Assembly (NCBI GenBank): GCA_012837935.1
Contig: DUQG01000007.1
Span: 1 to 64,000 of the forward strand
Reading direction: 5' to 3'
DNA length: 64,000 bases
Source: Bacteroidales bacterium
GTDB taxonomy: Bacteria; Bacteroidota; Bacteroidia; Bacteroidales; Paludibacteraceae
Part shown: positions 5,919 through 9,614 of the stretch, one piece after another
Layout: each line of letters begins with the position of its first letter
Position numbering within the stretch: the stretch's first letter is position 1
Notes under the pieces: model-generated
Seen by the model: the letters and a program-made list of their open reading frames with translations, nothing else
Databases searched by the model: none
What the model was told of the DNA's origin: nothing
Made by a program: the position numbers and the translations under genes

Positions 5919-8261
5919 TTATGCCTTCTTTTTGCCTTTTGTGTAGGTCTTTTTCTTTTTACCCATTGAATCTGCTTGTGAAGCAATGAGTTCACGGCAT
6001 TGTTCTTCCGTCAAAGTTGCGGCATCCGTATTTTTCGGAATTTTATAGTTGTTCTTTTCAAAAGCAATGTAAGGTCCGTATCTTCCGTTAAGCACTTGAA
6101 TTTCACCTTTATCGCCGAATACATTAATCACTTTATTCTTGTCGGATTCTCGTTTTTCCTCAATGATTTCAATGGCTCTTTCAGCTGAAATTTCCAATGG
6201 ATCTTCCGTTTTCGGGATGGAATAGAATTTACCGTCGTGGCGGATGTATGGGCCAAAGCGGCCTACAGCCACAGTCATTGTTTTGTCTTCAAACTCACCC
6301 AAATTACGCGGCAATTTGAATAGTTCCAATGCATCTTCAAGCGTTATACTTTCGATGGATTGATTTTTACGAAGTGAAGCAAATACAGGTTTTTCTTCCT
6401 CTTCCGGTGTGCCAATCTGTGCTATGGGTCCATAACGACCAATTTTAACGGATAACTGTCTGCCGGATTTTGGGTCAATACCAAGCACGCGTTCACCCAC
6501 TTGACGTTCCGAGTTTTTCAGTGTGTCTTCCACCACAGGATGGAATTTTTTATAAAAATCATCAATCAGTTTATTCCATTTCAACTCACCTTCCGCTATG
6601 CTGTCAAACTCTTTTTCAATATTGGCTGTGAAATTATAGTCCATAATGTTAGGGAAAAATTCTACCAAGAAGTCATTTACCACCAGACCAATGTCTTCCG
6701 GAAATAATTTAGCTTTTTCAGCACCGTAGTTTTCTATTTTTTGCGATTCGGTTATTTTCTTGTCTTTTAGTCTTAGCTCAGAATATTTTCGTTTTTCAGC
6801 CGGACGATCGCCTTTTTCCACGTATTTTCTGTTTTGAATGGTAGAAATAGTAGGTGCGTAAGTGGATGGACGTCCGATGCCGAGTTCTTCCAGTTTGCGA
6901 ACAAGGCTTGCTTCGGTGTAGCGTGGCGGACGCTGTGTAAAACGCTCTTGAGCCAGAATTTCATTAGCAGTCAGCGATTCACCTTTTTTCATTGTTGGCA
7001 GCAAGCCACTGGTTTCGGTGTCCTGCTCATCGTCGGTAGATTCTAGGTAAACTTTCAAGAAACCATCAAAAATAATAACTTCACCGGAAGCAACAAATTG
7101 ATGTTTACTTCCTGAAATATTGATATAAATATTGGTTTTTTCCAGTTCGGCATCTGCCATTTGTGAGGCGATGGTACGTTTCCAAATCAGCTCGTATAAG
7201 CGCTTTTCTTGTGCTGTGCCTTCTACGCTGTGCGCATTCATATAGGTCGGGCGAATAGCTTCGTGAGCTTCTTGAGCACCTTTACTTTTGGTGCTGAATT
7301 TTCTGATTTTTACGTATTTTTCGCCGGCTATCTGGATGATTTCGCTTTTCGCTGTATTAATTGCTAAATTCGACAGATTTACAGAGTCGGTACGCATATA
7401 GGTTATTTTTCCCGATTCATACAGACGCTGTGCTACCATCATGGTTTGTGCAACGGAAAAACCGAGTTTGCGAGCGGCTTCTTGTTGCAATGTAGAGGTG
7501 GTGAATGGCGGTGCAGGCGATTTTTTTGCCGGTTTTTTCTCGATATTGTCCACCGAAAATTCTGCATCTTTGCACGATTCCAAAAAGGCATTCGCTTCTT
7601 CTTTTGTTGCAAAACGTTGCGAAAGTTCAGCTTTTAGTTCTACCGGATTGCCGTTTGTATCTTTCGATGTGAAAATTGCAGAAACTTTGTAAGAACTTTC
7701 TGCAACGAAATTGTTGATTTCGCGCTCACGTTCTACAATTAATCGTACTGCAACAGATTGTACACGTCCTGCAGAGAGAGCCGGGCGAACTTTTCGCCAA
7801 AGAATAGGCGAAATTTCAAAACCTACAATTCGGTCAAGCACACGACGAGCTTGCTGTGCATCTACCAAATCAAGATTAATATCACGTGGATTTTCAATAG
7901 CACGCAGGATGGCATCTTTGGTTATTTCATGAAAAACAATCCTTTTCGTGTTGTCTTTTTTCAGTTTTAATTCCTCAGCAAGGTGCCAAGCAATAGCTTC
8001 CCCTTCGCGGTCCTCATCGGATGCTAACCATATAACGTCAGCTGCTTTTACAGCTTTTTTAAGGTCAGCCACAATTTTCTTCTTGTCGGGTGAAACTATA
8101 TACTGCGGTTCATAGTTATTTTCAAAGTCTATCCCAAGTCCTTTATCGGATAAGTCGCGGATATGTCCCATACTGGACATAACTTCAAAATCTTTTCCAA
8201 GAAACTTCTCAATGGTTTTGGCTTTGGCAGGTGACTCGACAATTACTAAATTTTTTGACAT
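5919..8261 (-). CDS. topA: DNA topoisomerase I (type IA)
   Basis: 780 residues from the ATG at 8261 (MSKNLVIVESPAKAKTIEKF, the canonical type IA start; an upstream in-frame ATG at 8321 would add 20 unrelated residues). It relaxes negative supercoils by cutting one strand through a tyrosine. Toprim domain about 1-120 with SDEDREGEA (81-89), catalytic tyrosine Y288 in KITYMRTDS. The C-terminus lacks four-cysteine zinc fingers and instead has three repeats of the form (G)RxGPxI (about residues 625-760) and a basic tail KKKKTYTKGKKKA, as known in this phylum. Confidence 0.96.
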   Translation of the reverse strand: MSKNLVIVESPAKAKTIEKFLGKDFEVMSSMGHIRDLSDKGLGIDFENNYEPQYIVSPDKKKIVADLKKAVKAADVIWLASDEDREGEAIAWHLAEELKLKKDNTKRIVFHEITKDAILRAIENPRDINLDLVDAQQARRVLDRIVGFEISPILWRKVRPALSAGRVQSVAVRLIVEREREINNFVAESSYKVSAIFTSKDTNGNPVELKAELSQRFATKEEANAFLESCKDAEFSVDNIEKKPAKKSPAPPFTTSTLQQEAARKLGFSVAQTMMVAQRLYESGKITYMRTDSVNLSNLAINTAKSEIIQIAGEKYVKIRKFSTKSKGAQEAHEAIRPTYMNAHSVEGTAQEKRLYELIWKRTIASQMADAELEKTNIYINISGSKHQFVASGEVIIFDGFLKVYLESTDDEQDTETSGLLPTMKKGESLTANEILAQERFTQRPPRYTEASLVRKLEELGIGRPSTYAPTISTIQNRKYVEKGDRPAEKRKYSELRLKDKKITESQKIENYGAEKAKLFPEDIGLVVNDFLVEFFPNIMDYNFTANIEKEFDSIAEGELKWNKLIDDFYKKFHPVVEDTLKNSERQVGERVLGIDPKSGRQLSVKIGRYGPIAQIGTPEEEEKPVFASLRKNQSIESITLEDALELFKLPRNLGEFEDKTMTVAVGRFGPYIRHDGKFYSIPKTEDPLEISAERAIEIIEEKRESDKNKVINVFGDKGEIQVLNGRYGPYIAFEKNNYKIPKNTDAATLTEEQCRELIASQADSMGKKKKTYTKGKKKA

Positions 8262-8517
8262 AATACGGATTGGTTTTTGAAATTGGGTGCAAAATAACAA
8301 AAACAAATAGGTATCAACCAAATTTTCAGCTAATTATTTTTGATTTTTAGGAAATTCAACTGATTTTTGGCTGCATTTTCAGAATCTATACGCAAATTTC
8401 CCTTAGAGTATTATCTGAAAACAAAATTTATTTTACTCAAAATTTAACAAGGTAAAATAATTGTATATAGGGAAGTCATCTTGACTTTTCATAATAACAC
8501 AAAATACTCATATTATT

Positions 8518-8567
8518 AACTACGAATGACACGAACTTTATTCGTGTCATTTGCAAAATTCGTAGTT
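8518..8567. repeat. Nested palindromic intergenic repeat, copy 1
   Basis: Outer arms AACTACGAAT (8518-8527) and ATTCGTAGTT (8558-8567) enclose an 11-base perfect hairpin (8525-8535 with 8541-8551, AATGACACGAA). A second copy with identical 10-base outer arms lies at 59083-59154. Confidence 0.7.
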
Positions 8568-8673
8568 TTATTAAAAATAAAAACGAGTTTTTATCTGTTA
8601 AATTGGATTTTTTAGGTAAAAAACAATAAGTCAAGATAAGTTCAGGGATTTTAATTGTAAGAATGGAAAATGG

Positions 8674-8748
8674 TTTAAAAAAAGAAAGGTAGCCCTACGT
8701 GACTACCAATTCCTTTATCTTTAAATTCTTAAACCATGAAAAAATCTC
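8674..8748 (-). ncRNA. Candidate small RNA of about 70 bases
   Basis: On the minus strand a full consensus promoter (TTTG at 8784-8781, 20 bases, TACATTTG at 8760-8753) is followed about 70 bases later by an intrinsic terminator: GGTAGTC (8707-8701) pairs with GGCTACC (8694-8688, one G-T wobble) and then TTTCTTTTTTT. No protein gene lies between. The RNA would carry ATTTTTTCATGGTTTAAG, which is complementary to the translation starts of AAACC-ATGAAAAAA type common in this phylum, so antisense action on start sites is possible. I do not recognise it as a named RNA family. Confidence 0.5.
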
Positions 8749-8752
8749 ACTG

Positions 8753-8788
8753 CAAATGTAATTCATCCGAGTTGATATTCCAAATGTA
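8753..8788 (-). promoter_or_regulatory. Consensus promoter for candidate sRNA
   Basis: Minus strand TTTG (8784-8781), 20-base spacer, TACATTTG (8760-8753). This is the textbook Bacteroidetes TTTG-N19..21-TAnnTTTG arrangement. The same octamer TACATTTG occurs at both positions. Confidence 0.6.
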
Positions 8789-8965
8789 ATTGTTGAAATA
8801 TAGAATAATTAATAAAAATTAACCGTAGGTTTTGTGTATGGAAGTTAAAGTTTTTATGTTAAGGTTCTCGTTATCAGCGCTTTGTGTGTTGTGTGTCTAT
8901 TCCCGTATGGATTGAGTTTAGTTGAAAAAACTTAGTTTTTGTTTTATTATGCTACATATATTCAG

Positions 8966-8973
8966 TATATTTG
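8966..8973 (+). promoter_or_regulatory. -7 element for the 9005 lipoprotein gene
   Basis: TATATTTG, a perfect TAnnTTTG. It lies downstream of the alternative in-frame ATG at 8939, which supports the start at 9005. Confidence 0.55.
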
Positions 8974-9004
8974 TCGAATAAAAATAAAATATTGCAAAAC
9001 TAGT

Positions 9005-9535
9005 ATGAGAAAATTGTTTGCATTAATTGCTTGCGTCCTTGTTTTTTCTTCTTGTGATTTCATCACGAATAAATACAACCAGTATTTTAAGGAAGAACCG
9101 CCACAACCTATTGACACGATTATAATTGATGAAGATGTGGATGTGATGGCTCTTACATTAGAGGCTTTACGAAAAAAACGCATTCCAAGCGGTTACCAAA
9201 TAGTGGGTGATGTGCAATCGGATGTACTGACTTATCTTGGCTTTATGGTTGATGATGTAAAACAATATATTTTTAAAAATGCTAATGGCGAGAAGATTGT
9301 TTTTAGTGATAATGACACGAATTTTGCATTGAAAATAAAATCTAAGAAATCACCCAGAAAAAATGGTGGTTTTGAGGCAAATCCACGTTATGTGAACAAA
9401 GAATTTCGTGTAGTTTGGCGAAAACTAATTTTGACACGCGATCCACAAAATGAGATTGAATTTTATAACCACGAAATTGAGCAAATTATTTTCTTACAAG
9501 AGCAAACTCAATTTCTTATAAAGGAATTTGAATAA
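9005..9535 (+). CDS. Small lipoprotein of unknown function
   Basis: 176 residues. MRKLFALIACVLVFSSC gives a lipobox with cysteine 17. The start at 9005 is chosen over 8939 because the signal peptide begins here and a promoter (-7 at 8966-8973) lies between them. The body is charged, has no repeats or known motif, and ends with a helical segment rich in glutamine and glutamate (EIEQIIFLQEQTQFLIKEFE). I do not recognise the family. It converges on prfB, sharing the terminator at 9558-9588. Confidence 0.75.
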   Translation: MRKLFALIACVLVFSSCDFITNKYNQYFKEEPPQPIDTIIIDEDVDVMALTLEALRKKRIPSGYQIVGDVQSDVLTYLGFMVDDVKQYIFKNANGEKIVFSDNDTNFALKIKSKKSPRKNGGFEANPRYVNKEFRVVWRKLILTRDPQNEIEFYNHEIEQIIFLQEQTQFLIKEFE

Positions 9536-9557
9536 AGAGATTTATTGAAAAAACAAA

Positions 9558-9588
9558 AAACGCAAATGAAAAAAATTCATTTGCGTTT
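9558..9588. terminator. Bidirectional terminator
   Basis: AAACGCAAATGAA (9558-9570) pairs perfectly with TTCATTTGCGTTT (9576-9588) over a loop of five A. A/T-rich flanks on both sides let it serve the plus-strand lipoprotein gene and the minus-strand prfB. Confidence 0.8.
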
Positions 9589-9614
9589 ATAATTTTAAAA
9601 ACTTCTGCTTTATT

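Follow-up and report, generated by a model that had tools for sequence, protein, structure and literature searches.

A probable FopS-derived small RNA gene with an altered seed upstream of topA in a member of the Paludibacteraceae

The window (the whole stretch of 64,000 nucleotides analyzed here, from a Bacteroidales genome of the family Paludibacteraceae) very probably contains on its minus strand, between positions 8674 and 8750, a small RNA (sRNA) gene with a promoter and a terminator. In sequence this copy is FopS-derived, a label preferred to certified membership in Rfam RF04319 because the copy falls under the gathering score of the family while its topA-linked orthologs pass it. FopS is a family of paralogous sRNAs (RF04319; Ruttiger et al. 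2025, PMC11697453), labeled Bacteroidetes in Rfam and mentioned also in PMC12119571. As that first paper describes it, B. thetaiotaomicron has 14 FopS sRNAs, which bind susC-like mRNAs close to the start codon and stop translation, an effect counteracted by the RRM protein RbpB (PMC11697453). A new RNA class is ruled out by the Rfam match; the FopS kind itself is known, and what is new here is the copy with a changed seed, the family-wide presence in Paludibacteraceae and the presence without an RRM_1 domain.

We consider it likely that the locus is a free-standing sRNA gene of FopS descent, with a transcript of about 74 nt whose pairing with start regions would block initiation on several mRNAs. 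RNA polymerase would start 3′ of the TAnnTTTG promoter and halt at the hairpin and T run. Beginning with GUGAGAUUUUUUCAUGGUU, the 5′ part of the RNA would pair with the start regions of several mRNAs (those with AUGAAAAA-like starts), and this pairing would block initiation, as demonstrated for FopS-10 of B. thetaiotaomicron (PMC11697453). Since the seed is altered in its 3′ half, the RNA would probably have a target set different from that of the genome's two canonical FopS copies. The elements of the locus are the following.

8753..8784, minus strand: promoter, with TTTG at -33 and TACATTTG at -7 (from the sequence and from the TAnnTTTG of family copies).
8674..8750, minus strand: FopS-derived sRNA, matching RF04319 over model positions 1-71 with 38.5 bits (likely ends, placed by the model and by the T run).
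8713..8744, minus strand: 5′ seed, altered relative to the family past CATGGT (from alignments).
8688..8707, minus strand: terminator hairpin GGTAGTC-ACGTAG-GGCTACC (from the terminator scan), with a stem that covaries in relatives.
8677..8687, minus strand: T-rich terminator tail TTTCTTTTTTT (from the sequence and the terminator scan).
5919..8261, minus strand: topA, DNA topoisomerase I (Pfam PF01131, PF01751), the next downstream gene on the same strand, outside the sRNA and used as a syntenic anchor.

On the minus strand, TTTG (8784-8781) is followed after 20 nucleotides by TACATTTG (8760-8753), and this TTTG-N20-TACATTTG arrangement fits what we take to be the canonical sigma-ABfr promoter consensus. 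Between promoter and T run, the predicted transcript of about 74 nt would have its 5′ end near 8750 and its 3′ end in the T run near 8677. The hairpin (8707-8688) forms seven pairs directly 5′ of TTTCTTTTTTT, so that the copy ends, like FopS, in a Rho-independent terminator hairpin. Promoter, stem-loop and T run had been read from this strand beforehand, and the sequence and the terminator scan bear them out. The stem-loop had been placed 70 bases past the promoter, which suits the T run (about 66-76 bases past it) but not the onset of the hairpin (about 46 bases). The same sequence-only reading saw no protein gene at the locus, and no open reading frame (ORF) of at least 40 aa overlaps the sRNA; on the opposite strand, a 17-codon ORF begins at the ATG of the complement.

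The stretch 8670-8750 folds with z = -4.16 (0/200 shuffles as good) and the stretch 8678-8750 with z = -2.42 (4/200 shuffles as good). In part, the stronger fold of the longer stretch arises because the seed pairs with bases immediately 3′ of the T run, a pairing that would be absent from a properly terminated sRNA. The first 15 bases form a small 5′ hairpin in the predicted fold. The altered seed is partly complementary to bases at or just past the T run (window 8670-8736, minus strand), and an RNA that reads through at this locus would mask its own seed. Between sRNA and topA, there is an inverted repeat (window 8523-8567) with the core CACGAACTTTATTCGTG, which occurs a single time in the window and nowhere else among the loci fetched.

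The RF04319 model matches the copy across its full length with 38.5 bits (E = 1.8e-4 for the 291 bases searched; E = 4.2e-4 in the search of the whole genome). The gathering score of the model is 56 bits, above the 38.5 bits of this copy, and an E-value threshold was used instead to detect it; the default Rfam scan of the window returned a tRNA alone and not the FopS copy. It had been claimed that the element is of a class that gene callers would not report: the class is covered by RF04319, but this one copy does lie under the cut-off and is passed over by the default scan. The genome holds two copies above the cut-off, at C11:79449-79521 (78.4 bits) and C63:1014-1086 (60.7 bits), and the window copy is the third, in keeping with the multicopy habit of FopS. 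A weak fourth place is found on C36 (27.6 bits, E 0.055).

The copy resembles FopS in its length (about 70 nt), its canonical Bacteroidota promoter (the sigma-ABfr class is the one named for FopS; PMC11697453), its terminator hairpin, the several copies per genome and a 5′ seed with UUUUUCAUGGU, whose complement looks like a translation start. It differs from FopS in scoring under the cut-off and in its seed past CAUGGU: the window copy begins with GUGAGAUUUUUU and the Rfam consensus with GUGUUUUU, and at the place of the conserved single-stranded 5′ seed R1/R1′ of the family UUUUUUCAUGGU is retained while the later part is altered. It also lies in Paludibacteraceae, whereas the statement in the FopS paper, that the family is highly conserved, is made for Bacteroidaceae (PMC11697453). 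The R1 seed is common to GibS and FopS, and GibS carries a second seed, R2 (PMC11697453). The GibS model (RF04182) is longer, with 142 positions, and has no match in the window stretch up to E 10. BTnc231 (RF04180) gives the second-best match to the copy (25.8 bits, E 0.0018), with a similar 5′ UUUUUUUCAU and a similar hairpin, but its gathering score is 80.4 and the 3′ part of its 154-position model is mostly deleted in the alignment with the window copy.

Family anatomy was examined in 97 copies (96 of the 97 matches from a search of 61 genomes, leaving out G051:C3:215372-215442 with 36.2 bits, plus the weak place on C36). The motif TAnnTTTG lies 5′ of 88 of the 97 copies, compared with 488 of 19,400 length-matched random stretches. 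Its distance to model position 1 is the same four bases in 79/97 copies and two bases in the window copy. A simple search recovers a hairpin with a T-rich tail in 89/97 copies, with 42 different 5′ arms. In an alignment of 40 of the 97 copies, chosen by hand and with copies under 47 bits excluded except the window copy, the seven stem positions are paired in 98.6% of cells; six of the seven pairs change on both sides, and 0/500 shuffles score as high. An exact 27-base seed TTTTTCATRGTATTAGATTTAAGGTTA is present in 61/97 copies, or in 66/97 if the T run is free to vary. Two forms are common: in GTG-TTTTTCATGG the hairpin loop resembles TCGTGA, and in GTGA-TTTTTTCATAG it is, for example, AAGCG. 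Among the matches listed, the CATAG form is found in named contigs of, for example, Bacteroides, Phocaeicola and Paludibacter, and the CATGG form with six T (six being required by the query) in Muribaculaceae and Dysgonomonas. The window copy resembles the GTGA-TTTTTTCATAG form in its hairpin and its start, and the GTG-TTTTTCATGG form in its CATGG.

The two best BLASTN relatives, on G005:C231 (80%, E 1.1e-11) and G001:C29 (80%, E 2.7e-10), belong to the same genus and both pass the FopS cut-off (58.8 and 59.7 bits). Promoter-like and terminator-like consensus matches are common in the stretch (five terminator-like sites on the two strands of 8000-9600, against a shuffle mean of 0.6, the sRNA hairpin being one of the five), and both elements might have come together by chance in AT-rich intergenic DNA. 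Given the FopS E-values and those of the two BLASTN relatives, we regard such a coincidence as extremely improbable: the family match is full-length, and the topA-linked orthologs keep 80% identity.

Both orthologous sRNAs are followed on their own strand by copA (HMA P-type ATPase) and topA; the window copy is separated from the topA start by about 410 bases, on the same strand and with no intervening copA. A copA gene is found in 6/8 genomes of the genus and has no match at E <= 1e-100 in the window genome and in G007, which suggests that it was lost in the window lineage. The FopS copy is not beside topA in G002, G003, G004 and G006 (all draft genomes but G002), and no topA was located in G007. 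The position of the element relative to topA, the lack of TAnnTTTG on the minus strand of 8262-8680 and the place of both orthologs 5′ of copA and topA would suit a leader or attenuator of topA. That reading is nevertheless very unlikely: the topA linkage holds in just two of the six other genomes of the genus with a located topA, 72 other loci examined have no topA, prfB or lipoprotein match, and the 5′ part fits the family seed. At two loci, each from a different genome of the genus (L319:19449-19521, on G000:C11, and L029:674-746, on G007:C102), the gap between the end of a canonical FopS copy and the start of a co-directional membrane protein gene is 9-11 bases; the protein at L319 has a nucleoside-recognition domain (Gate, PF07670), and a double role of these canonical copies as leaders is possible.

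The free-standing sRNA gene that we favor differs from its family mainly in the seed. Relative to the 39 other selected rows of the alignment (several of the omitted copies under 47 bits also have altered seeds), the window copy departs from the majority in 8 of the 29 seed columns, and every other row in at most three. Five of the eight are substitutions at columns invariant in the 39 others and two are insertion columns; the last is the CATAG/CATGG column, in which each of the two letters is frequent among rows. Despite the altered seed, the copy retains an intact promoter, an intact T run and all seven stem pairs. Compared with both orthologs, the copy keeps all 14 stem letters; its changes are four in the loop and, in the 5′ part, six substitutions and three inserted bases. 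Selection on the seed of this copy is lost or altered, in a pattern that does not tell decay from retargeting.

In a decaying copy, the promoter and terminator would persist with the seed free of selection and the role lost. Its genome has three FopS matches at E <= 0.001, and the window copy scores lowest among them; it has changed five seed bases that are otherwise invariant in the alignment, and the copA that comes next after the orthologous FopS in two relatives has no match in its genome at E <= 1e-100. The intact stem, T run and promoter argue against decay, as does the distribution of the changes, which fall in the 5′ part and loop and spare the stem; we hold decay to be rather unlikely. 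That selection instead altered the seed for pairing with new mRNAs is, in our view, a doubtful proposition. With the promoter and terminator constrained and the seed rewritten, the copy might then, with a similarly low probability, address start codons other than those addressed by the canonical paralogs in its genome. The confinement of the changes to the 5′ part and loop, with the promoter core and stem kept, points in that direction, and so does the start-region preference that the altered seed retains (below, 0/40 shuffles as good), but no near-perfect new target is seen among six places in the genome within three mismatches of CTTAAACCATGAAAAAATC.

For the favored sRNA gene, pairing energies were computed for 233 ORFs, each 200 aa or longer, drawn from the window and from 20 further stretches (464 of 2799 kb), taking the most upstream ATG as the start, so that some starts are wrong, and with energies that leave accessibility aside. 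For the window seed, the median at starts is 1.2 kcal/mol lower than at mid-gene (start minus mid-gene, -1.2 kcal/mol), a difference reached by 0/40 shuffled seeds, and 45/233 starts lie at or below -14 kcal/mol (shuffle mean 16.6). The C63 seed likewise prefers start regions over mid-gene among the 233 starts (0/40 shuffles as good); for the C11 seed, start and mid-gene medians are equal and 3/40 shuffles did as well. The test favors the canonical C11 copy no more than the window copy. The proposal of a trans-acting antisense regulator is likely on the strength of the FopS relatives and of this start preference, which the suggested target prediction brought out, but the ground first given for it fails: AAACC-ATGAAAAAA had been taken as the typical start context, and in the 233 genes ACCATGAAA occurs in none, CCATG in two and ATGAAAAA in 25. 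The conservation in relatives on which the sequence-only reading had staked its case beforehand extends to promoter and terminator, but only partly to the antisense segment.

The targets of the window copy are uncertain, because the normally near-constant targeting segment is the part that is altered. The six CTTAAACCATGAAAAAATC-like places of the window genome (reversed control, one) are the gene itself, another FopS copy, a sulfatase gene start and three that are not clear gene starts. The sulfatase start, with three mismatches to the complement of the window seed, is no better than a weak candidate target. The SusC model has 21 matches in the genome (seven above the cut-off), and among 20 such loci whose starts were read by eye only L120 shows AACCATGAAAAAAACTC. 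The best start-codon match to the complement of the window seed lies in another genome, at G003:C254:7548-7571 (L312), in a DUF5077/DUF3472 gene (96% over 24 bases). This gene has no match in the window genome at E <= 1e-10, and retargeting to it is set aside as a chance match. The variant seed TTTTTCATRGTTTAAG is found at eight places in 6/61 genomes (reversed control, three places); by eye, L308, L310, L313 and L314 are sRNA-like, and L309 and L312 are gene starts. These are too few for a claim of a recurring subfamily seed.

The 61 genomes are the window genome and 60 relatives, with a FopS match accepted at E <= 0.001. The search of Bacteroidales genomes proposed for the block gives FopS matches in 44/61 (38/61 above the cut-off), namely in 36 of the 37 genomes of the family Paludibacteraceae and in 8 of the 24 other Bacteroidales. 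In a draw across the phylum, with stricter filters that lose weak matches, FopS occurs in 4/296 genomes (the window genome included), three of them above the cut-off; two of these genomes belong to the same order and carry 6 and 11 matches. In the literature searched, no description of FopS in Paludibacteraceae was found among the matches listed. Clusters of three co-directional copies, every copy having a TAnnTTTG-like promoter of its own, occur at G007:C102:6412-7314 and G008:C1:2632332-2632998, and the same arrangement recurs at G025:C1:231216-232458 and L176:5852-6637. Sequences resembling the canonical C11 copy occur in five phage records (e.g., MT836368.1, PQ571285.1) and in 18 plasmid records (Prevotella, Parabacteroides, Phocaeicola, Bacteroides), many at about half coverage and none under an annotated feature; four of the five phage records and some of the plasmid records bear no annotation whatever.

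The window genome has one RRM_1 gene (C11:57636-57845). RRM_1 (PF00076) is a domain model that detects any such protein and not RbpB itself; read in this sense, it has no match in 17 of the 44 FopS-positive genomes (G010, G012, G014-G016, G021, G022, G024-G028, G031, G035, G046, G051, G057). Within Paludibacteraceae, this is the case for 14/36, 12 of which are given as at least 94% complete. Across the 61 genomes, 27 have both, 17 FopS only, 12 RRM_1 only and 5 neither, which shows no association of the two (Fisher p = 0.57).

In 37 genomes, near-complements of the canonical seed are found at 55 places, 49 inside FopS matches and 6 outside. With so few near-perfect mRNA complements of a near-constant seed, the question is what holds it constant. 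The FopS-positive genomes without RRM_1 make a role of FopS without RbpB directly testable, and the window copy, as a natural seed variant, would be useful for tests both of seed constancy and of FopS action without RbpB.
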